Source: Mesorhizobium sp. PAMC28654 (GTDB lineage: Bacteria > Pseudomonadota > Alphaproteobacteria > Rhizobiales > Rhizobiaceae). Taken from it: DNA of 64,000 nt. Position numbers and translations under genes: made by a program. Below, piece by piece: positions 1,747 through 14,176 of this stretch. The notes beneath the pieces are model-generated. The model saw only the letters and a list, made by a program, of their open reading frames with translations, made no database searches and had not been told where the DNA came from. Position 1 is the stretch's first letter. Each line of letters opens with the position of its first letter. The stretch spans positions 5,193,001-5,257,000 of the forward strand of contig NZ_CP085135.1 in assembly GCF_020616515.1 (NCBI RefSeq), given 5' to 3'.

Positions 1747-2900
1747 ATGGACATTACCTTGCCAGAAGAAGGTGGGCGCGGCGCCCGCTATCAGCTCGTC
1801 GGCCAGCCGGTGCAGCCTGACATCGGCGGGCTGTTTTCGCGCGTCGCCTATGCCGCGGCTCATGTCGTCGCCGATCCCCTGGCGATGACCGATCCGTGGT
1901 CTCGACCGGTTGTCGACTGGGAGAAGACGATGGAATTTCGCCATCATCTGTGGCGGCTCGGCTTCCGCATCGCCGAGGCGATGGACACTTCGCAGCGCGG
2001 CATGGGTTTCGACTGGACAAGCGCCAAGGAATTGATCCGCCGCTCGATCGCCGAGGCGCGGACCGTCGAGGGTGCTAATCTTGCCTCAGGCGCCGGCACG
2101 GACCATCTGGCAGCGAGCGCGGGGAGGACGATCGACGACGTGGTCGCCGCCTATGAGGAACAATTCGCTTTCATCGAAGGGCAGGGCGGCAAGGCGATCA
2201 TGATGGCCAGCCGCGCGCTGGCGGCAGCGGCCAAGGGTCCCGATGATTATGCCCGTGTCTATGACCGTATCCTGTCCCAGGCCTCCGGCAAGGTCATCCT
2301 GCACTGGCTGGGCGACATGTTCGATCCGGCATTGAAGGGATACTGGGGCTCGCATGATTTCGACGCCACGCTCGACACCGTCGTTGGTATCATCGAGCGC
2401 CATGCCGGCAAGGTCGAAGGCATAAAAATCTCGCTGCTGGATGCCGGCAAGGAGGTTGCGCTCAGGAACAGGCTGCCTGAAGGCGTCGTCATGTTCACCG
2501 GTGATGACTTCAACTATCCCGAACTGATCGCTGGCGACGGACACAGACATTCGCACGCCCTGCTTGGCATTTTTGACGCGATCGCGCCGGTCGCCAATGC
2601 AGCGCTGGTGAAACTGGCCGAGGGCGACCGCGCCGGCTACGACGCGCTGATGGCGCCGACGGTGCCGCTATCGCGAAAATCTTCGAGGCGCCGACCGAGT
2701 ACTACAAGGCCGGCATCGTCTTCATGGCATGGCTCAATGGCCATCAGGATCATTTTACCATGGTCGGCGGAATGCAGTCGGCGCGCGGCATCCGCCATTA
2801 TGCCGATATCTTCCGGCTCGCGGACAAGGCTGGGCTGCTTGCCGATCCGGATCTGGCCGTCGCCAGGATGAAAAATCTCTGCGCGATCGCGGGCGTCTGA
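1747..2900 (+). pseudogene. DUF993 family (dihydrodipicolinate synthase-like aldolase), frameshifted near its 3' end
   Basis: Class I aldolase-like TIM-barrel protein of the DUF993 family, seen next to Gfo/Idh dehydrogenases and sugar regulators. The first 310 or so codons are intact (motifs KVILHWLGDMFDPAL and VEGIKISLLD, the latter with the expected Schiff-base Lys). At 2676-2679 a run of four A puts the reading frame out: the annotated frame continues as arginine/serine-rich nonsense to 2871. The +1-shifted frame instead gives a family-like tail (KIFEAPTEYYKAGIVFMAW and GHQDHFTMVGG) ending with TGA at 2898-2900. One missing A explains it. A good ribosome site (GGGAGAGATCG) precedes the ATG. 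Either a recent pseudogene or a sequencing indel. Confidence 0.8.
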
Positions 2901-2980: not shown

Positions 2981-4057
2981 TTGGCAATGAACGATAAAGT
3001 GGCGCTCATAACCGGTGTGACCGGCCAGGACGGGGCCTATCTGGCGCAACTGTTGCTGCAGAAGGGCTACATCGTCCACGGCGTCAAGCGCCGCTCTTCT
3101 TCGTTCAACACCGAGCGTGTCGACGACATCTACGTCGATCCGCATGAGCGCGACACCCGCTTCTTCCTGCACTATGGCGACCTGACGGATGCCACCAATC
3201 TGATCCGCCTGGTGCAGGAGACGCGCCCCAGCGAAATCTACAATCTGGGCGCCCAGAGCCACGTTCAGGTGAGCTTCGAAACACCAGAATATACGGGCAA
3301 TTCCGATGCTCTGGGGACGCTCAGGCTGCTGGAGGCCATCCGGATTCTTCGCCTGGAAAAATCAGTGCGTTTCTACCAGGCGTCGACATCGGAACTTTAC
3401 GGCAAGGCGCAGCAGGTGCCGCAGAGCGAGACCACGCCCTTCCATCCGCGCTCGCCCTATGCGGCGGCCAAGCTCTACGCCTATTGGATCACGGTGAATT
3501 ATCGCGAGGCCTACGGCATGTTTGCCGCCAACGGCATCCTGTTCAACCATGAGAGCCCGACACGGGGCGAAACCTTCGTCACCCGCAAGATCACAAGGGC
3601 CGTCGCCGCGATCGATCGCGGGCTTCAGGAGACGCTCTATCTCGGCAACATCGATGCCAGGCGCGACTGGGGCCATGCGCGCGACTATGTCGAGGGCATG
3701 TGGCGCATCCTCCAGCATGAAGAGCCCGACGATTTCGTGCTGGCGACCGGCGAGACGCATTCCGTGCGCGAATTTGTCGAACTGGCCTTTGCCCAGACCG
3801 GGCGGACCGTTCGCTGGCAAGGACAAGGCGTGGATGAGATCGGCGTCGATGCCGATTCGGGCACCGCGCTCGTGCGTATCGACCCGCGCTACTTCCGGCC
3901 GACCGAGGTCGACCTTCTTCTGGGCGATGCGTCCAAGGCCAAGGCCAGGCTGGGCTGGACGCATACGGTCGGCTTCACGGACTTGGTCGCGGAAATGGTG
4001 CAGGCCGATCTGGCGCGCGCCACCGGCGGCAAATGGCGTGGCGGCCGTACTGTATAG
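2981..4057 (+). CDS. gmd: GDP-mannose 4,6-dehydratase
   Basis: Converts GDP-D-mannose to GDP-4-dehydro-6-deoxy-D-mannose, the first step of GDP-L-fucose synthesis. This is an extended short-chain dehydrogenase of 358 residues with the NADP-binding [14 protein letters not shown] at the N-terminus, the active-site [10 protein letters not shown] (YxxxK) and the family signature [16 protein letters not shown]. The first possible start is TTG at 2981, six bases after GGAG; ATG at 2987 is equally possible and only removes two residues. It is followed eight bases later by fcl, so the two form a GDP-fucose operon. The C-terminus ends cleanly. Function is secure. Confidence 0.97.
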
Positions 4058-4065
4058 GGGTGCTC

Positions 4066-5034
4066 ATGGACGATACATTCGAGCTTCGGGGCAAACGTGT
4101 TTTCGTGGCAGGGCATCGCGGCATGGTCGGCTCGGCCGTTGTGCGCAGGCTCGCGCACGAGGATTGCGAGGTCCTGACAGCATCCCGTGGGGAGCTTGAT
4201 CTCATGGATCAGGCCGGCGTGCGCATTTGGATGGCGGCGCGCCGCCCAGACGCCGTGGTGATGGCGGCGGCCAAGGTCGGCGGCATCCTGGCAAACGACA
4301 GGTTTCCGGTCGACTTCCTCCATGAAAATCTCGTGATGCAGACCAATGTCATCGAAAGCGCTTTCCGCAGCGAGGTGCGGAAGCTGCTGTTTCTTGGGTC
4401 GTCCTGCATCTATCCGAAATTCGCGCCCCAGCCGATCTCCGAGGACGCGCTGCTGACGGGCCCGCTCGAACCCACCAACGAATGGTACGCCATCGCCAAG
4501 ATTGCCGGCCTGAAACTGTGCCAGGCCTACCGGCGCCAATATGGTGTCGACTATATTTCGGCGATGCCGACCAATCTCTACGGCCCCGGCGACAATTTCG
4601 ATCTCAACTCCAGCCATGTCGTGCCCGCGCTGATGCGCAAGGCGCATGAGGCCAAACGCCGAGGCGACAAGTCGCTGGCTGTCTGGGGATCGGGCAAGCC
4701 CATGCGCGAGTTCCTGCATGTCGACGATGCCGCCGATGCCCTTGTCTGGCTGCTGAAGAATTATGCTGGCGATAGCCACGTCAATGTCGGCTCGGGCGAG
4801 GATGTCACCATTGCCGAACTCGCCCGCACGGTTGCAGCCGTGGTCGGCGCCGACGTCGAGGTCACGTTCGACCCGACGAAGCCCGATGGCACGCCGCGCA
4901 AGCTCATGGACGTGTCCAGGCTGTTTGCGACCGGCTGGCGCCCGCGCTACACGCTTCGCGGTGGTTTGGAGGAGACCTATGCCTGGTTTCTCCAGCACAT
5001 TGAAACGGGCGACGTCCGGCTCGGGGCCGCGTGA
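4066..5034 (+). CDS. fcl: GDP-L-fucose synthase
   Basis: NADPH-dependent epimerase/reductase completing GDP-L-fucose synthesis from the Gmd product. The 322-residue protein has the Rossmann motif VAGHRGMVGSA near the N-terminus, the catalytic YAIAKIAG (YxxxK), and the typical GSSCIYPKFAPQPI and PTNLYGPGDNFD segments. ATG at 4066 is chosen over an upstream in-frame ATG at 4033 because AGGGG sits five bases before it and the upstream codons overlap gmd. The C-terminal peptide TYAWFLQHIETGDVRLGAA is repeated almost exactly as a remnant at 7549-7608, evidence for a local duplication. Confidence 0.96.
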   Translation: MDDTFELRGKRVFVAGHRGMVGSAVVRRLAHEDCEVLTASRGELDLMDQAGVRIWMAARRPDAVVMAAAKVGGILANDRFPVDFLHENLVMQTNVIESAFRSEVRKLLFLGSSCIYPKFAPQPISEDALLTGPLEPTNEWYAIAKIAGLKLCQAYRRQYGVDYISAMPTNLYGPGDNFDLNSSHVVPALMRKAHEAKRRGDKSLAVWGSGKPMREFLHVDDAADALVWLLKNYAGDSHVNVGSGEDVTIAELARTVAAVVGADVEVTFDPTKPDGTPRKLMDVSRLFATGWRPRYTLRGGLEETYAWFLQHIETGDVRLGAA

Positions 5035-5040
5035 CGAAAG

Positions 5041-6459
5041 ATGTTGATCGCCACTAACAGGAAAGACGGGCTCGGTGGCCGCCTGCTGGCGATGGCGAAC
5101 GCAAAGGCGCTGGCCGACAGGCTCGGCTATCGTTTCGGCTTCACCTGGAACAGCAGGACAATACTCGACGAGGGGTCCCATACCGTCGACGTGGTCGGGA
5201 AGATATTCAGCGCCGACTTCATCGAGAAGCATTGGCTGGGCGAGAAGATCTCGAGGGCCGGTTTCGGCATTCTTGGCGGCAAGCAATTCACGCCGTCGGA
5301 CCTGGGCGCCGTGGCAAGGCAGGGACGGTTGCGCGGCTGGATCTGCAACGACTTCGATGCCCTCGATTTTTTCCACGACGACAGTGCTGAACCGGTCGCA
5401 CGATCAGAAACGCTGCGGGCTATCGGTTTCTCGCCAGCCGTACGAACGGCGCTGGATGCGGCTGGCAAATGCCGCTTTCCCGGTCCGATGGCGGCATTGC
5501 ATCTTCGCAGTGGCGACATCGTCTACGGTCAAAATCGCAGAAGACTGGTTTTCGCCGAAAAGGTGATCCCCTCGGTCCTGGCCAAGGCGATCATAACGGA
5601 GCTTTCATCAAGGGGGCTGACAACGCTGCTGGTCGGCCAGGATCATGCCACGCTCGACTATCTCAAGGCCGAGACCGGGGCGTTGCGCACCAGCGATTTC
5701 GGGGCCGGCGAATTCAGGGAGGAGACCCTGAATGCATTCTTTGAGATGGCGCTGATGGCAAGGTGTCAACAGATCCATGCCGGCGGCAGCATTTATGCAA
5801 CGATAGCATCGCTGATGGGCGACAAACCTTGCCTCGGCACCAGCGCCTTGTTCAGCAAGTCCCGCGCGGCGGAAATCATCACGGATGAATTGCGGGCGCA
5901 CCAATCCGACTACCATCGGCTTGAGGCGGCTTTTGGCTATCGCTGGGCCTTTCAGTCGCTGGAGGACGAGATCAGTCCGGCGCGAGCGCGGGAGCTTCTG
6001 GGAAAGGCTCAGGCGCTCGATCCGGAAAACGACGGCTACGAGCTGAAAATGGCCGCGGCCTGTTTCCGCGACGGGGATTATGCCGCTGGCGAGGCGATCC
6101 TGAAATCGCTGATGATAGGCCAGTCAGGAAGACGCTCCAGCATTCCATTGCCAATGATGGACATGCTGACCACCCGGCTCGGCGGCTACCGGGCGATGGC
6201 AAACGACTTCGACGTTTTCCTCGCCGCCGCGAGAGCCGGCCACTCTTACGCGATGGCGTGCTCGGCCTATATCCTCGTCGAAGTGTTCGACGACAGGACA
6301 CCGGCGGTGGAGATGGCAGCGAGGCTGGTGGAGATGGAGCCTGGAAATCCGATCTTCAGGAAAATCAGACGGCGGGTGGCAATGGGCAAGAGGCCGGAAT
6401 CCGGTCGGCTGGCGAAGGCAAGATGGCGCCTTGGCGGACTTCGCGGGCTGTGGTCATGA
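5041..6459 (+). CDS. Putative GDP-fucose-dependent glycosyltransferase with HxRxGD motif (copy A)
   Basis: A 472-residue protein starting six bases after the fcl stop, so almost certainly in the same operon. The N-terminal part reads RKDGLGGRLLAMANAKALA, the type of opening seen in NodZ/FUT8-like enzymes. Residues 154-159 are HLRSGD, matching the HxRxGD peptide motif shared by alpha-1,2-, alpha-1,6- and O-fucosyltransferases. A later segment (FFEMALMARCQQIHAGGSI) resembles their third motif. From about residue 300 the protein is helical with a TPR-like pattern. Gene order makes GDP-L-fucose the likely donor; acceptor unknown. Roughly 60% identical by eye and colinear with the copy at 7618-9027. 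Family assignment is by motif only. Confidence 0.6.
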   Translation: MLIATNRKDGLGGRLLAMANAKALADRLGYRFGFTWNSRTILDEGSHTVDVVGKIFSADFIEKHWLGEKISRAGFGILGGKQFTPSDLGAVARQGRLRGWICNDFDALDFFHDDSAEPVARSETLRAIGFSPAVRTALDAAGKCRFPGPMAALHLRSGDIVYGQNRRRLVFAEKVIPSVLAKAIITELSSRGLTTLLVGQDHATLDYLKAETGALRTSDFGAGEFREETLNAFFEMALMARCQQIHAGGSIYATIASLMGDKPCLGTSALFSKSRAAEIITDELRAHQSDYHRLEAAFGYRWAFQSLEDEISPARARELLGKAQALDPENDGYELKMAAACFRDGDYAAGEAILKSLMIGQSGRRSSIPLPMMDMLTTRLGGYRAMANDFDVFLAAARAGHSYAMACSAYILVEVFDDRTPAVEMAARLVEMEPGNPIFRKIRRRVAMGKRPESGRLAKARWRLGGLRGLWS

Positions 6460-6712
6460 GTCTCGCCAGTAGCTCAGGTCTGATAGAGCATGAGCGCAAG
6501 AACCAGTGGATTGCGCTCGACATGGACAAGAAAAGCTAATGGGACGATCGCAAGGATCGGCCGCAAGGATCGGCCGTGAATTCGAGAGCCTCGCCAGGCA
6601 GGCCGCCGATCTTTGCTACCTATGGAAATTGCGGCGGCGGAAGGTCATCCCGTTCAATTATCATGATAGGCGCATTCGTTCGTCCCACCACTGAGAAAAC
6701 GCGCTTTAGAAA
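6460..6712. other. Intergenic spacer inside the fucose block
   Basis: About 250 bases without a convincing gene. It contains a short direct repeat (CAAGGATCGGCCG twice around 6550-6576) and is less GC-rich towards 6712. No terminator or promoter stands out. Confidence 0.5.
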
Positions 6713-7486
6713 ATGTGTCAGATGGCCCTCACTGTAGACTTCACGACGAACTGCTATGAAAATGACTGGCGGATGGTGTTGGGGGAAAAGTACCTGCGCA
6801 CCGTCGTTGGGCGCTGCTCCTACCCTTTTTCAAGCCGCCGCCTTATCATAAACAACGTCAAGGAGCGCGGCATCGTCGAGACAGCCGCAAAGGCAGCGAT
6901 CGATCGCGGCGACATCGACGAATATCTTTTTGAGGAAGACCATGCGGCAGCCGCGTTGGAGTTCTTCCAGATCGACAAAGCGTCCTTCGGTCGCGGCTAT
7001 CTCTACTCGATCAGTGAACTCGTGGCGATTTACGCCAGCAGCGCCGCCTATCTGCTCTACTACATGGGCGACTCGTTCCCCAAGCGCCGCCACCACTGGA
7101 TCGTTCCCGCCCTGGCGTTGATGGAAAGCAGCGCCGATCTTGTTGTCGCAAATCCCTGTTGGAACGATCGATTCAAGGAGGCGAAGAAGGAAAGCCAGGG
7201 GCAGATTGACGATTTCTTCGTCGGCTATGGTTTCTCCGACCAATGCTTCTTGGGAAAGATGTCCGTATTCCGCGCCCCGGTCTACGGAGAGAAGAACCAT
7301 GCGTCGGAGCGGTATCCAGCCTACGCTGACGAACCATTCGAAAAGCGCTTCGATGCCTACATGCGCAATCACGGCCTGAAGCGGCTTACGCATAGATCCG
7401 AGAGCTACATTCATCAGAATATGCCGAAAGCTGGCCTTAAACGAGCTTGGCGGGAAATCAGGCCATTCGTCAGCCCGTGGCTTTAG
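6713..7486 (+). CDS. Hypothetical protein, possible glycosyltransferase
   Basis: A 257-residue protein lying between the two HxRxGD paralogues. No signal peptide or membrane segment is evident. The central part (YYMGDSFPKRRHHWIVPAL then VVANPCWNDRF) has the layout of a GT-A transferase, with GDS where a DxD metal motif would be expected and a following donor-site-like segment, but this is a weak resemblance. The start could be ATG 6713 or ATG 6722; neither has a strong ribosome site. Its location suggests it helps build or modify a fucosylated glycan. It was inserted or retained between the duplicated segments. Function not established. Confidence 0.5.
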   Translation: MCQMALTVDFTTNCYENDWRMVLGEKYLRTVVGRCSYPFSSRRLIINNVKERGIVETAAKAAIDRGDIDEYLFEEDHAAAALEFFQIDKASFGRGYLYSISELVAIYASSAAYLLYYMGDSFPKRRHHWIVPALALMESSADLVVANPCWNDRFKEAKKESQGQIDDFFVGYGFSDQCFLGKMSVFRAPVYGEKNHASERYPAYADEPFEKRFDAYMRNHGLKRLTHRSESYIHQNMPKAGLKRAWREIRPFVSPWL

Positions 7487-7548
7487 GCGCACGCCTTGCG
7501 GTCGGAAGGGGCCACATCCAGTGGCGAAAGCCTGACGCCTGGTACCAA

Positions 7549-7608
7549 ACCTATGCCTGGTTTATCCAGCGCATTGAAAAAGGGGATGTCCGCCTCGGAG
7601 CGGCTTGA
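7549..7608 (+). pseudogene. Remnant of the fcl 3' end (duplicated fragment)
   Basis: The twenty codons ending in TGA at 7606-7608 read TYAWFIQRIEKGDVRLGAA, matching the last 19 residues of fcl (TYAWFLQHIETGDVRLGAA) at all but four positions. The matching frame extends a little upstream but decays. The spacing to the next gene (nine bases before ATG 7618) mirrors the fcl-to-copy-A junction (six bases). This is the scar of duplicating an fcl-glycosyltransferase segment. Confidence 0.85.
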
Positions 7609-7617
7609 GACCAGTCA

Positions 7618-9027
7618 ATGCTAATTGCCGCGACCAGAACCGACGGATTGGGTGGCCGCCTGCTGGCGATGGCCAATGCGAAATCGCTGGCCGACGGGCT
7701 CGGATGCCGTTTCGGCTTCACCTGGAGCGACGAGGCCATCCAGGACAACACATTTCACATCGTCGACGTGGTCAGGAAGATATTCTCCGACGCTTTCATC
7801 GAGAGGTACTGGCTGGGCGAGCAGGTCGACATTTCACGCTTCGGCCTTCTGGATCGTACGATCTTCACGCCAGACAGTCTTGAGGCGGCCGCCAGGCAGC
7901 GGAATCTCGAAGGCTGGATCTGCGACCAGTTCGACATTCTGAGCTCATTTCGCGCGGATGGGGCAAAACCCCTCGCACGATCCGAAGCACTGCGCGGTTT
8001 TGGTTTCTCGGCCGACGTGACGGAGGCGATCAGCGCCGCCGGCGGGGTGCGATTCCCCGGCCCGATGGCGGCGCTGCATCTTCGCAGCGGCGATATCGTT
8101 CATGGCCGTTATCGGACGAGATTGATTTTTGCCGGCAAGGTGATCCCATCCACTCTTGCCAAGGCAATCGTCTCGGAGCTTTCGGCCAGGGGGTTGAACA
8201 CCCTGCTCATTGGCCAGGACCGCGAAACGCTGGAGTATCTGAGGTCCCAAACCGGCGCCTTGCTGACCAGCGATTTGGAGGCCGGAGAATTCGAGGATCG
8301 CACGCTCAAGGATTTCTTTGAAATGGCCCTGATGGCGCGTTGCGAGCAGATCCATGCGGGAAACAGCATCTTTGCGACCGTAGCATCCGTAATGGGTGAT
8401 ATTCCTTGCCTGAATTCCGATGCGCTGTTCAGCAAAGCCAGGGCGGCGGAGATTGTCCTTGAGGAATTGAAAGCCCACGAGCCCGACTATCATCCGCTCG
8501 AGGCCGCCTTTGGCTATCAATTCGCTTTCCTGAACCTTGAGGACAAGATCAGCCTTGCACAAGCAAGGGAAATTCTGGACCGCGCGCTCGCACTCGATCC
8601 GGAGAACTATATCTACGTGCTGAAGATCGTCGCCGCCTATTTCCGCGAGGGCGACTTTCCCTCAGGCGAAGCCCTGCTGAAATCGCTGATGAGCAGGCAG
8701 TTCCAGGCGCGCGCCAAGATCCCCTTGCCGGCGATGCGGGTTCTTACCGAGGTGATTGGGGGCAAGAATGCCATGGCAAGGGATTTCGGACTTCTCTTCG
8801 CCTCGGCACAGGCCGGCCACCCCCACGCCATGGCATGTTCGGCCTATCTTCTTCGCGAATCGGGAGAGCCCAGGCGGGCGCGCGAGATGGCGGCGCGGTT
8901 GGTGGAGGCTCAGCCAGCAAACCCGATGTTCAGGAAAATCAAACGCTGGATAAGGTTGGGTAGAAAACCCGAGACCGGTTTTCTGGCCAGGATCCTATGG
9001 AAGCTTCGACAGCTGAGGCCGTTTTGA
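7618..9027 (+). CDS. Putative GDP-fucose-dependent glycosyltransferase with HxRxGD motif (copy B)
   Basis: A 469-residue paralogue of the gene at 5041-6459, colinear over its whole length with HLRSGD at the same residues 154-159 and the equivalent FFEMALMARCEQIHAGNSI segment. The C-terminal third is again helical and TPR-like (LDRALALDPENYIYVLK). It begins nine bases after the fcl remnant. Divergence of roughly 40% from copy A indicates an old duplication with both copies kept intact, so the two probably use different acceptors or linkages. The donor is inferred to be GDP-fucose from the operon. The gene ends 31 bases before the 3' end of the convergent tRNA-Val. Confidence 0.6.
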   Translation: MLIAATRTDGLGGRLLAMANAKSLADGLGCRFGFTWSDEAIQDNTFHIVDVVRKIFSDAFIERYWLGEQVDISRFGLLDRTIFTPDSLEAAARQRNLEGWICDQFDILSSFRADGAKPLARSEALRGFGFSADVTEAISAAGGVRFPGPMAALHLRSGDIVHGRYRTRLIFAGKVIPSTLAKAIVSELSARGLNTLLIGQDRETLEYLRSQTGALLTSDLEAGEFEDRTLKDFFEMALMARCEQIHAGNSIFATVASVMGDIPCLNSDALFSKARAAEIVLEELKAHEPDYHPLEAAFGYQFAFLNLEDKISLAQAREILDRALALDPENYIYVLKIVAAYFREGDFPSGEALLKSLMSRQFQARAKIPLPAMRVLTEVIGGKNAMARDFGLLFASAQAGHPHAMACSAYLLRESGEPRRAREMAARLVEAQPANPMFRKIKRWIRLGRKPETGFLARILWKLRQLRPF

Positions 9028-9058: not shown

Positions 9059-9133
9059 TGGTGGGCGTGACAGGGATTGAACCTGTGACCCCTGCAATGT
9101 CAATGCAGTGCTCTCCCGCTGAGCTACACGCCC
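9059..9133 (-). tRNA. tRNA-Val (GAC)
   Basis: The reverse strand folds as a full cloverleaf: acceptor GGGCGTG/CACGCCC, D-arm GCTC/GAGC, anticodon stem CTGCA/TGCAG with loop TTGACAT (anticodon GAC at 9099-9101), T-arm ACAGG/CCTGT with TTCAATC, discriminator A and an encoded CCA at 9059-9061. Confidence 0.97.
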
Positions 9134-10818: not shown

Positions 10819-10844
10819 TATCGATATCCTCGATACAACGCCGT

Positions 10845-10877
10845 AAAAAAAGACCGCATCGTTTTCACGATACGGTC
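10845..10877 (-). terminator. Rho-independent terminator of the sRNA
   Basis: On the reverse strand a 10-bp stem (GACCGTATCG / CGATGCGGTC, one G-U pair) with a six-base loop is followed by seven T residues. Confidence 0.85.
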
Positions 10878-10929
10878 GAAGTCTAGGGAGGAAACGCCCA
10901 AGGAGGGCATGGACAGGAAAACCTGTCCG
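10845..10929 (-). ncRNA. mmgR: MmgR-like (alpha-r8 family) small RNA
   Basis: A reverse-strand transcript of about 80-85 nt is predicted from a promoter at 10936-10963. It would begin with a perfect hairpin GGACAGG-TTTT-CCTGTCC (10928-10911). Next comes a small hairpin with anti-Shine-Dalgarno loop (GCCCTCCTTGGGC), then the single-stranded ten-mer TTTCCTCCCT, and finally a strong Rho-independent terminator. This size, three-hairpin layout and conserved ten-mer match the Sinorhizobium meliloti MmgR family as I know it, which limits polyhydroxybutyrate accumulation. The assignment rests on motif and structure seen here, not on a covariance search. Confidence 0.75.
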
Positions 10930-11134: not shown

Positions 11135-11908
11135 TTGGATATCAGCATCGATTTCATGCGGCGCATCGCGCAAGCAGCGGCGGCCGAGACCTTGCCGCGC
11201 TTCCGCAGCCAGGGCGCGGTGGCCAACAAGGAGAAGGGCAGTTTCGACCCGGTGACCGAGGCCGATCGCGAGGCCGAGCGGGTCATCCGCGCGCTGATAT
11301 CGGCTGAGTATCCAGACCATGGCATCCTCGGCGAGGAGCATGGCAGCGAGAACATCAACAGCCGGCATGTCTGGGTGATCGATCCAATCGACGGCACGCG
11401 TGCCTTCATTTCCGGCCTGCCGGTATGGGGGACGCTGGTTGGGCTGACGGTCGATGGCGATGCGGTCGCCGGCATGATGTCACAGCCTTTCACCGGCGAA
11501 CTGTTCTATGCCAACGCCTCCGGCTCCCACTATGAGGGGCCGGGCGGACCGCGAAAGCTATCGACCCGCAAAACCACGAAGCTCGCCGAGGCGACGCTGT
11601 TCACCACCACGCCGGCGCTGTTCAAGGGCGAGGCGCGCAAGCGCTACGATGCATTCGAAAAGCAGGTGCAACTCGCCCGCTACGGCACGGATTGCTATGC
11701 CTTCGCCATGGTCGCCGCGGGAAGCGTCGACATCGTCGCCGATCCCGGATTGAAGCCCTACGACATCGTCGCGCTGATCCCGATCATCGAAAAGGCCGGC
11801 GGCGTCGTCACCACCTTCGATGGCGGACCGGCGGAGAATGGCGGCGACGTCGTGGCCGCGGCGACACCGGAGCTTCACGCGGCGGCGATGGCGGCGCTGC
11901 GCGGCTAA
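11135..11908 (+). CDS. hisN: Inositol monophosphatase family protein, histidinol-phosphatase HisN type
   Basis: Metal-dependent phosphatase, 257 residues from the chosen start. The metal-binding motifs are GEEHG and WVIDPIDGTRAF, with the C-terminal motif GLKPYDIVALIPIIEKAGG. The form GTDCYAFAMVAAGSVDIV resembles HisN-type histidinol-phosphatases that finish histidinol synthesis in many actinobacteria and alphaproteobacteria. A longer frame is open from ATG 10994, but its first 47 residues are not family-like and overlap the sRNA promoter side. TTG at 11135, preceded by GGGAG eight bases upstream, gives the usual length. The family is sure; the substrate (histidinol phosphate versus another) is inferred. 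Confidence 0.85.
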   Translation: MDISIDFMRRIAQAAAAETLPRFRSQGAVANKEKGSFDPVTEADREAERVIRALISAEYPDHGILGEEHGSENINSRHVWVIDPIDGTRAFISGLPVWGTLVGLTVDGDAVAGMMSQPFTGELFYANASGSHYEGPGGPRKLSTRKTTKLAEATLFTTTPALFKGEARKRYDAFEKQVQLARYGTDCYAFAMVAAGSVDIVADPGLKPYDIVALIPIIEKAGGVVTTFDGGPAENGGDVVAAATPELHAAAMAALRG

Positions 11909-12080
11909 AGCGGAAAATCCGCTGACTTCTGCCTGAACGCCTTAGCGGAAGCCATAGGCGCGGAGCGTCACCTGACTGCAATGCATGGCCTGATTTCTGC
12001 TTGGGGATTGGTCGCGGTCGCTGCTGGCAGGCGAATCTGGCTTGGCCAAGGATACAGATATTGCCTTCGTGAGTGATGTC

Positions 12081-13217
12081 ATGCGTTTGAGCCGGCTCAT
12101 TCTTCTGCTCTCCCTCGGGCTCGTGCTTTTCGCGAGACCCGGTTTTGCCGACACCGAGGTCCGCGAGGAAAAGCTCTTGTTGCTGATCCACGTCGGGTCT
12201 CATGACGAGAAGATCGAGACGCTGGTGGTGCGTCCCGTGGTTGGGGACAGGTTTCCGATTGCGCTGATCGTCAACGGTTCGGCGGCGGCATCTCCGTCGA
12301 AAATGCATCCCGAATGGCTGGCGCACTTGGCGCATGACTTCGCTCATCGCGGCTGGCTTGCCGCGTCGATCGTGTGGCCGGGTTACGGCAACTCCACCGG
12401 AAAATTCATGAACCGGGCCGGGACCTGCGCCGCCCCCAACGTCGCCATGTTTCTCGATGCGCATGGGAACGAGCTCGCGGCGGCGTTGACGGCGCTTCGA
12501 AAACGTACCGACGTTGATCGATCCGTCGTATTGGGCGTCGGCGTATCGATTGGCGGCGCGTCCATCCTGGATCTGTCGGCGCGCCCCGGTCGGCCATTGA
12601 CGGCGGCCATCAACATTTCCGGCGGGGTCTATCACTATGACAGAGTGGGCGTCCCCACCCCCGGCTGCGCCTTGTTCAAGGCGGACCTCGTGGGAAACAT
12701 GGCGCGTTTCGGCAAAGACAACCCCACGCCCACCCTCTGGTTCTACGCCGCGAACGATCCGTATTTCGGGCCGGATCTCGCCAGGCGGATGGTGGCGGCT
12801 TACCGCTCCCGGGGCGGGCAGGCCGATTTCGTCGCGCTTCCGCCGTTCGGCACGGATGGACATACGCTTTTCAAGCAGAAGGCCAGTCCGCTGATGGCGC
12901 CAGGGATCGACGCGTTCCTGCGACGGAACGGTCTTCCGGCAATGGATGACGCGGCTTTGACGCCCATCCTCTCCCGGCTCGGGCCAGCGGATCGGGCCAG
13001 CGCCGAACTGTACCTGAAAAATGATGCCGAAAAAGCCATGGCAATGCCGGAGAAAGCCAGGGGCATCTATTGGCACTATGGTGCGCGTTCCCTCGACGAT
13101 GCGCGGAAACAGGCTCTTGCCACGTGCCAAAAGGCGACCAGCCGGAAGTGTCATCTCGTCGCGGAGAACACACATCCGGCGGATGGATGGCAACGGGTGG
13201 TTGCTGGCAAGGAATGA
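12081..13217 (+). CDS. Exported alpha/beta hydrolase, dienelactone-hydrolase-like
   Basis: A 378-residue protein with a classical signal peptide (MRLSRLILLLSLGLVLFA, cleavage after GFA before DTEV), so it acts in the periplasm or beyond. The fold is alpha/beta hydrolase: an oxyanion-side strand ALIVNGSAAASP, nucleophile elbow LGVGVSIGGAS (G-V-S-I-G), a later acid-strand region FYAANDPYFG and His in GTDGHTLF. The ORF is open further upstream, but ATG 12081 begins the signal peptide. The substrate cannot be told; homologues include esterases and lipoprotein-like hydrolases. Convergent with the frameshifted hydrolase downstream. Confidence 0.75.
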   Translation: MRLSRLILLLSLGLVLFARPGFADTEVREEKLLLLIHVGSHDEKIETLVVRPVVGDRFPIALIVNGSAAASPSKMHPEWLAHLAHDFAHRGWLAASIVWPGYGNSTGKFMNRAGTCAAPNVAMFLDAHGNELAAALTALRKRTDVDRSVVLGVGVSIGGASILDLSARPGRPLTAAINISGGVYHYDRVGVPTPGCALFKADLVGNMARFGKDNPTPTLWFYAANDPYFGPDLARRMVAAYRSRGGQADFVALPPFGTDGHTLFKQKASPLMAPGIDAFLRRNGLPAMDDAALTPILSRLGPADRASAELYLKNDAEKAMAMPEKARGIYWHYGARSLDDARKQALATCQKATSRKCHLVAENTHPADGWQRVVAGKE

Positions 13218-13220
13218 CGT

Positions 13221-14176
13221 TCAAGCCGCGTCGTCGGTTCCGGGAATGAAGGCGTCGAAGGCGGCCAGGAACGGCTCGCGATAGATGTCGGCTTCCTGCA
13301 GGATTTCGTGGCGCGCACCGTCGATCATCAGCAGCGAGCCGAGACGCAGATGCCGGGCATAGGCCTCCACGGCTTTGGTCGAAACGACCTGGTCGGTCCC
13401 GGCGGCGATTATCAGCAGGGGAATCTGGATCCTGGCCATGAAGTCCGGGTCGCTGACGGCTTCGGCTGCCTGCGCCGCCGCCCTCAGCCATCGGATCGTC
13501 GGGCCGCCGAGCGCCAGTTGCGGATAGGTCTGGTAGAGCTGCGTGTTTCGTGCGAACCGCGCCGGGTCGGTGGTCACCTTGTTGGTGGCGAAGGGCGGCG
13601 GCTGTTTCTTCCGCGGTCCCCACGCGGCGTAGAGACGGCCGAGCCCAAGGAAACAGAAAATGAGCAGACGCGCCGCACCGTGGATATCGAGACGGGCAGG
13701 CCCGGCAAGGTGAAAAATGGCGCGATCAGCACCATGCGCCGCACCCGGTTCACCATCGATGGCGCGGCAAGCAGCGCAATGACCGCCCCCGCGGAGTGGG
13801 CCAGTATGTAGTAAGGCCCACGGCAGTCGGGCAGCACGATCTCCTCGAAGAACTGCTCGAGATCGCTGGTGTAGTCGTGGAAACTGCGGACATAGCCGCG
13901 CTGGCGGTCGCGGATCATGCGGTCGGAGCCACCCTGGCCGCGCCAGTCGAGAGTGGCAACGCCAAGACCCCGGTCGGCCAGGTCGCGGATGGTCTCGAAA
14001 TATTTCTCGATGCATTCGTTGCGGCCGGTCAGGACCACCACCGTGCCCTTCATCGGGCGGCCGGTGGCAGGAAAGAGGCCATAACGGATCTTCTTGCCGT
14101 CGCGCGTGGTGAAGAAGCCGCCGGCGGCATTTTCCGGCGTCGGGTTGCCTGGAATTTCGTGGAAGAGGTCCGTCAT
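13221..14176 (-). pseudogene. Alpha/beta hydrolase (lysophospholipase-like), frameshifted
   Basis: A monoacylglycerol-lipase or lysophospholipase-type hydrolase split by one frameshift. The N-terminal part starts at ATG 14176 (MTDLFHEIPGNPTPENAAGG) and carries LDWRGQGGSDR and the nucleophile elbow YILAHSAGAVI. The C-terminal part, in another frame, runs from ARLLIFCFLGLGRLYAAWG to TGA at 13221 and supplies the acid (AAGTDQVVS) and the His (GARHEI). The break is at about 13675-13679. Adding one G to the reverse-strand GTG-CGG junction would give STVAARLLIF and join the halves into a protein of about 318 residues. Either a pseudogene or a sequencing indel. Confidence 0.8.

Follow-up and report, generated by a model that had tools for sequence, protein, structure and literature searches.

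The DNA segment described here lies in a window of 64,000 nucleotides from Mesorhizobium sp. PAMC28654 (contig NZ_CP085135.1, positions 5,193,001 to 5,257,000), the whole stretch that was analysed, in a genome made of a single contig of 6.70 Mb. It carries the genes gmd and fcl, followed by two paralogous genes, FT1 and FT2, whose products probably represent a new family of GDP-fucosyltransferases (Table 1). Gmd and Fcl had been taken as the enzymes producing GDP-L-fucose, and both passed the cut-offs of the NCBI equivalog models: Gmd scored 601.5 bits against TIGR01472 (cut-off 415) and Fcl 525 bits against NF047922 (cut-off 500). At E ≤ 1e-100 for gmd and E ≤ 1e-60 for fcl, the genome has no match besides these two. 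The sequence-only reading had also reported a protein with two fucosyltransferase-like motifs within six bases of fcl, and a colinear paralogue 2.6 kb further on. Indeed, FT1, which displays both motifs, starts six bases past the fcl stop codon, and FT2 starts 2.58 kb past the start of FT1. The closest named relatives of the two proteins belong to Mesorhizobium.

Table 1. Features of the segment, in window coordinates (res., residues).
Feature	Position	Strand	Remarks
gmd, GDP-mannose dehydratase	2981-4057	+	TTG start as listed; ATG 6 bases in (2987) is the likelier start
fcl, GDP-L-fucose synthase	4033-5034	+	Overlaps gmd as listed; ATG at 4066 is the likelier start
FT1	5041-6459	+	Res. 1-280, GT-B domain of the fucosyltransferase superfamily; res. 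273-471, TPR-like domain at the C-terminus
HLRSGD motif I, FT1 res. 154-159	5500-5517	+	Aligned with NodZ HVRHGN
FFEMALMARC block, FT1 res. 233-242	5737-5766	+	Aligned with NodZ LxxMYLLxRC
orf257, predicted GT-A (GT2-like) glycosyltransferase	6713-7486	+	257 residues; between FT1 and FT2, same strand
fcl 3'-end remnant	7546-7608	+	QTYAWFIQRIEKGDVRLGAA and stop; precedes FT2
FT2	7618-9027	+	FT1 paralogue, old duplicate; 63% identity to FT1
tRNA-Val (GAC)	9059-9133	-	After FT2; ARAGORN, Rfam RF00005

The structure of FT1 was predicted with AlphaFold2 (AF2) at a predicted local distance difference test score (pLDDT) of 91.9. The model is of the GT-B type, one of the folds of glycosyltransferases (GT), and the closest solved structures found with Foldseek and VIA-align are GDP-fucosyltransferases, POFUT1 and POFUT2 among them. 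Among the matches listed by VIA-align, all 43 top entries, ranking above a GT9-type match, were GDP-fucosyltransferases. No structure of GT41, GT11 or GT74 appeared among the 50 matches listed in the fold searches, which excludes nothing. In the model the HLRSGD motif follows strand 150-154, which may be read as the first strand of the second Rossmann domain, and profile-profile alignment placed the motif on HVRHGN of NodZ, the GT23 alpha-1,6-fucosyltransferase. Two of the refuting conditions named in the sequence-only reading, a fold other than GT-B and a motif away from the nucleotide-binding position, were tested in this way and not borne out.

The relationship to NodZ was further analysed with sequence profiles. 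Early FT profiles, composed mostly of Mesorhizobium sequences, met NodZ weakly (E 0.046 and 1.1). A clear match required bridging relatives from outside Mesorhizobium. The resulting alignment, A6, contains 12 glycosyltransferase domains, four from Mesorhizobium and eight from another genus of the same family (G120), other families of the order (G607, G397, G362, G627), the same class (G852, G957) and a metagenome-assembled genome (MAG) of Opitutus. Against 177,635 sequences of the Protein Data Bank (PDB), the A6 profile returned NodZ as top match with E 4.5e-7 for the chain, while four of the seven further, weak matches (E 0.37-1.6) were POFUT1, POFUT2 (twice) and a plant fucosyltransferase. 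Using hhalign, A6 and the NodZ alignment matched with a probability of 97% (E 1e-10, 245 columns); a control against the orf257 family gave 0.2% (E 0.38). HLRSGD was aligned with HVRHGN, GQD with CTD, and FFEMALMARC..S.. with LxxMYLLxRC..SxF. The relatives from G627, G852 and G957 display blocks of the form P-(P/T)-x-S-(A/G)-F-S, resembling PPSSAFS of NodZ.

The HxRxGD motif was kept in all 115 homologues returned by a search in which the 8000 best candidates were scored, and its arginine was invariant. The ratio of non-synonymous to synonymous substitution rates (dN/dS) was 0.27 for FT1 against its nearest orthologue, 0.24 for FT1 against FT2 and 0.19 for FT2 against its relative in L039, and judged from these ratios both genes are under purifying selection. 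The complete conservation of the motif and the low dN/dS of FT1 and of orf257 (0.17) indicate more than a chance finding. A passage in PMC3180450 describes the arginine of this motif as the key GDP-binding residue of POFUT1, with equivalents in alpha-1,2 and alpha-1,6 enzymes.

Scans of FT1 and FT2 against Pfam, NCBIfam and PHROGs gave TPR-type (tetratricopeptide repeat) or insignificant matches only, and phmmer with FT1 against the PDB returned TPR and unrelated proteins only. PF05830, the family of NodZ, was not matched in searches at E ≤ 10 and E ≤ 1, where the HMMER filters drop most rows above 0.1. Neither protein matched PF01531, PF00852 or PF10250 (GT11, GT10 and O-FucT) at E ≤ 10, the Pfam family of GT41, or those of AtFUT1, FUT8, POFUT1 and POFUT2. 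Matches to NCBIfam models named after type III secretion (E 0.17 for FT1, 0.0083 for FT2, far under the cut-offs) were rejected as chance or TPR cross-matches. A second search with the FT profile brought up no further far relatives, its new matches being three fragments and, at E 1.6, a protein rich in TPRs.

The presence of an additional helical, TPR-like domain at the C-terminus was confirmed, its proposed length of about 170 residues was not: in the AF2 model of FT1 the helices extend from about residue 273 to 471, which is somewhat longer. TPR_19 scored 30.3 bits in FT2, above the gathering score of 25, and 18.5 bits in FT1, under it; TPR_14 scored 26.7 bits in FT2 (cut-off 23.5). The TPR-like part recurs through the family, TPR_19 being found in 14 of the 20 members of alignment A2 at E ≤ 10. 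The last 22 residues carry a net charge of at least +3 in 68 of the 70 closest homologues (P0001-P0070) and in 19 of 44 more distant ones. The hydrophobic moment is low over the last 18 residues (0.10 and 0.21) and reaches 0.71 (FT1) and 0.92 (FT2) in windows of 14 residues starting at residue 437-438, so that a membrane-binding helix in the cationic tail is suggestive only.

The genomic context was examined across Mesorhizobium. Of 30 FT loci in named genomes, 29 belong to Mesorhizobium or, for one MAG, to Hyphomicrobiales, and all of these occupy one slot, with the order LacI, DUF993, (gmd), fcl, FT, variable genes and, in 26 of 29, a response regulator gene. In the window, the tRNA-Val was taken as the boundary of this variable slot. 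FT lies directly 3' of fcl in 29/29 loci, 27 by a script that placed it within 200 bases of the fcl stop and two by match coordinates: for L034 and L061, where the script met a stop codon in the upstream extension of the fcl match, the coordinates put about 43 and 17 bases between the two genes. Directly upstream of fcl, gmd is present in 20 of the 29 loci, and six contain two FT copies. Adjacency here rests on tblastn, and the gene maps on a crude composition-based caller which missed some real genes. Among the variable genes are those for a Stf0 sulfotransferase, a GT8 enzyme and a protein of the alginate-lyase family, each assigned from a scan of one member. The last of these (PF05426) recurs beside FT, at 11411-13684 on the minus strand of L050 and in its relatives, and at 10761-11831 of L133; within the genus it is a protein of 757 residues whose N-terminal half has no family, and in G607 a separate gene.

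In a sample of 146 genomes of the genus, one per species, an FT match was found in 52, of which 40 were of full or near-full length (one, in G216, interrupted by a stop codon) and 12 were fragments. Full-length FT was present in 40 of the 67 genomes with fcl over the cut-off and in 0/79 others (Fisher 3e-18), a value which overstates independence since fcl and FT share the slot and can be lost together. Among the fragment-only genomes, 11/12 have fcl over the cut-off, and a gmd match at E ≤ 1e-100 occurs somewhere in 39 of the 40 FT-bearing genomes. Where fcl stands without full-length FT (L094-L112, L114-L121), FT is decayed or absent; fcl was mapped in the DUF993 slot in 25 of these 27 genomes, gmd is gone from the slot in 19 of those 25 maps, and each of the 27 genomes as a whole contains a gmd match at E ≤ 1e-100. 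Some of the 67 fcl genes lie outside the slot: in G203 and G204 (L116, L117), fcl belongs to a gmd-fcl pair of another kind beside NodZ, with 72% and 62-63% identity to the pair of the window. In G218 (L122 and L113, at 4813505 and 4852293), a stretch of about 38 kb with further genes separates fcl from FT; the two are on opposite strands, and FT still adjoins the response regulator gene.

Outside Mesorhizobium, gmd and fcl lie less than 5 kb from FT in G120, amid GT4, GT8, GT2 and FkbM genes. In G607 both occur on the FT contig at a distance of 11-12 kb, with open reading frames resembling PGM/PMM and ManC in between (identified by eye) and GT2, methyltransferase, alginate-lyase and pyruvyl-transferase genes as neighbours. 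The fcl products of both genomes pass the GDP-L-fucose synthase cut-off. An fcl-type gene at E ≤ 1e-60 was detected somewhere in 7/7 FT-bearing genomes tested, six of them over the cut-off. In the sample of the order, fcl accompanied FT in 6/6 genomes, or 4/4 excluding the genus, two of these four being congeneric, against a base rate of 108/397. In the Opitutus MAG (L062, 9572-11143) a GT4-like stretch precedes the FT domain within a single open frame, as seen by eye, and this fusion adjoins a TPR / CDP-glycerol glycerophosphotransferase gene. The description of the family as rhizobial was too loose: the genome of the window has no NodA or NodZ match, 13 of the 40 FT-bearing genomes of the genus show no NodA, and the family also occurs in the other genus, families, class members and Opitutus MAG named above.

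Taken as a fucosyltransferase, as had been proposed, FT1 is supported by the predicted fold, the homology with NodZ and the alignment of the motifs. The segment is thus likely to be a fucosylation module in which FT1 and FT2, as members of a new GT-B GDP-fucosyltransferase family, would fucosylate a surface glycan or a lipid-linked precursor. The fold, the homology and the gene order point strongly to GDP-L-fucose as the donor; what is said of the acceptor, the linkage and the role of the TPR part is guessed. The genes that accompany FT in other genomes and the exchangeable contents of the slot favour a surface polysaccharide or its lipid-linked precursor. Gmd and Fcl would convert GDP-mannose to GDP-L-fucose in the cytosol. 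FT1 and FT2 would act as GT-B enzymes of the HxRxGD superfamily, which spans GT11, GT23, GT37, GT65, GT68 and GT74 (alpha-1,2, alpha-1,6 and protein-O GDP-fucosyltransferases), the arginine of HLRSGD holding the pyrophosphate of GDP like its counterpart in POFUT1. Together with the predicted GT-A enzyme orf257 they would attach L-fucose, probably along with one further sugar, to lipopolysaccharide, capsule or exopolysaccharide, either on the glycan or on a lipid-linked precursor at the inner side of the membrane. The C-terminal TPR-like domain and the cationic tail may place the enzyme on its acceptor or on a partner complex.

Several observations weigh against this interpretation. The Foldseek TM-scores are low (0.29-0.39 by query length), narrower profiles gave hhalign probabilities to NodZ of 4% and 18%, and the best single stretch in the NodZ match of A6 has an independent E-value of 0.0058 only. 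In the genus, gmd is not beside fcl in nine of 29 loci, the shared slot makes joint loss of fcl and FT possible, 27 of the 67 genomes with fcl over the cut-off have no full-length FT, and the slot also carries genes without an evident tie to glycans. No gmd or fcl was found within about 10 kb of FT in five of the eight outside relatives fetched (G362, G397, G627, G957, Opitutus). Finally, a passage in PMC8698959 calls the fucose in the O-chain of M. huakuii S-52 D-fucose, so that O-chain fucose in Mesorhizobium need not be L.

A less probable reading, with some precedent, is that FT1 and FT2 form a bacterial class of TPR-guided protein O-fucosyltransferases. In a layout like that of the plant O-fucosyltransferase SPINDLY, a NodZ/POFUT-type catalytic domain would work in the cytosol while the C-terminal TPR part grips the protein, picking a flagellin or an envelope protein of soil Mesorhizobium. 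The TPR-like part found throughout the family and the place of POFUT1 and POFUT2 among the nearest folds are in line with it. The TPRs of SPINDLY are described as binding the substrate (PMC9715652), and FlmG of Caulobacter as glycosylating flagellins in the cytosol with a specificity set by its N-terminal binding domain (PMC7591256). The TPR domain leaves a protein target open, SPINDLY and FlmG being precedents, from other enzyme families, for cytosolic glycosylation guided by a binding domain. Against it stand the glycan-assembly genes near FT in G120 and G607 (GT2, GT4, GT8, FkbM methyltransferase, pyruvyl transferase), the fusion to a GT4-like stretch in the Opitutus MAG, the C-terminal position of the TPRs, and a paralogue turnover with changing cargo which resembles glycan diversification.

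There is a small chance that the donor is another GDP-6-deoxyhexose made from the Gmd product, e.g. GDP-perosamine. The fold sets tighter limits on the GDP site than on the sugar. In G852, gmd adjoins FT and is followed by ManC, a DegT-type aminotransferase gene and an fcl-like gene below the cut-off (286 bits), which suggests that the donor there may indeed be a different one. In Mesorhizobium, G120 and G607, however, fcl of the same cluster scores over the GDP-L-fucose synthase cut-off, and no aminotransferase was seen by eye in the operon of the window. That FT1 and FT2 are GT-B enzymes using a donor other than fucose, for instance heptosyltransferases of the GT9 type, and lie beside fcl by chance is very unlikely in view of the 43 better-ranked GDP-fucosyltransferases among the VIA-align matches listed, the colinear alignment of NodZ-type motifs and the association with fcl (40/67 against 0/79 genomes). 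That FT1 and FT2 fucosylate Nod factors is hardly credible: NodZ is the closest solved structure by sequence, and the title of a reference cited in PMC4103564 gives an alpha-1,3 fucose on the Nod factor of M. loti NZP2213, but the acceptor here is not a Nod factor, unless NodA was missed, because neither NodA nor NodZ was found in the genome at E ≤ 0.001, 13 of the 40 FT-bearing genomes of the genus likewise show no NodA, and the locus has a fixed position, flanked by DUF993 and the response regulator gene and here also by tRNA-Val, and is not a nod cluster. FT and NodZ are not mutually exclusive, NodZ occurring in 14/40 FT-bearing and 20/106 other genomes of the genus.

The fcl C-terminal remnant in front of FT2 indicates that FT was once duplicated in tandem along with the 3' end of fcl. 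Such fcl-tail matches likewise stand ahead of the second copy of FT in two genomes of M. qingshengii (L033, 9904-9987; L054, 9907-9990). A tree of 47 rows, rooted at the midpoint, does not join FT1 and FT2 as sisters: 11 FT1-type rows form a clade that excludes both FT2 and its orthologue from M. shangrilense, and in the other two-copy genomes the second copy comes from a different lineage. The protein encoded by orf257 has a GT-A fold in the predicted model, no Pfam family and a dN/dS of 0.17 against its nearest orthologue; the named sources of its homologues include Mesorhizobium, Dysgonomonas, Plebeiibacterium, a marine bacterium and a Patescibacteria MAG. At about codon 311, the DUF993 gene upstream of gmd (window 1747-2871) departs from the frame that its relatives follow. 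The frame continues in L033, and most of 29 related loci are two-frame relative to the window protein; either a frameshift mutation or a sequencing error would account for the break. A suhB/mmgR small RNA (Rfam RF00519) is located at 10837-10915 on the minus strand, between FGase and IMPase.

GT11 alpha-1,2-fucosyltransferases share with FT1 and FT2 an HxRRGDY-like motif I and the general motif order; they are not known to carry a TPR domain, and PF01531 is not matched by FT1 or FT2. From NodZ, with which sequence homology is detectable but whose PF05830 is not matched, they differ by the extra TPR-like domain of about 200 residues, by HLRSGD in place of HVRHGN and by a genome that shows no NodA or NodZ match. 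AtFUT1 (GT37), FUT8 (GT23), POFUT1 (GT65) and POFUT2 (GT68) are eukaryotic and show 9-14% identity over the residues aligned by VIA-align. SPINDLY (GT41) is likewise a GT-B fucosyltransferase joined to TPRs (PMC9715652), which are N-terminal there and C-terminal in FT1 and FT2. The evidence supports placing FT1 and FT2 in a new family of an established superfamily; the domain arrangement is new as well, and the chemistry is of a known kind. The suggestion that the family is undescribed held in Pfam, NCBIfam, PHROGs and the literature searched, a scope that leaves out CAZy and most subscription papers, and its named homologues are annotated as "hypothetical protein" or "tetratricopeptide repeat protein".

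According to a passage in PMC4103564, cloning and characterisation had reached only a small number of bacterial fucosyltransferases by 2012. A bacterial family of TPR-tailed GDP-fucosyltransferases would be a new tool for fucosylated glycans, and it would give the NodZ/POFUT fold a bacterial relative outside nodulation. An anonymous locus present in about a quarter of the species of Mesorhizobium would thereby become a testable system of surface-glycan or protein fucosylation.

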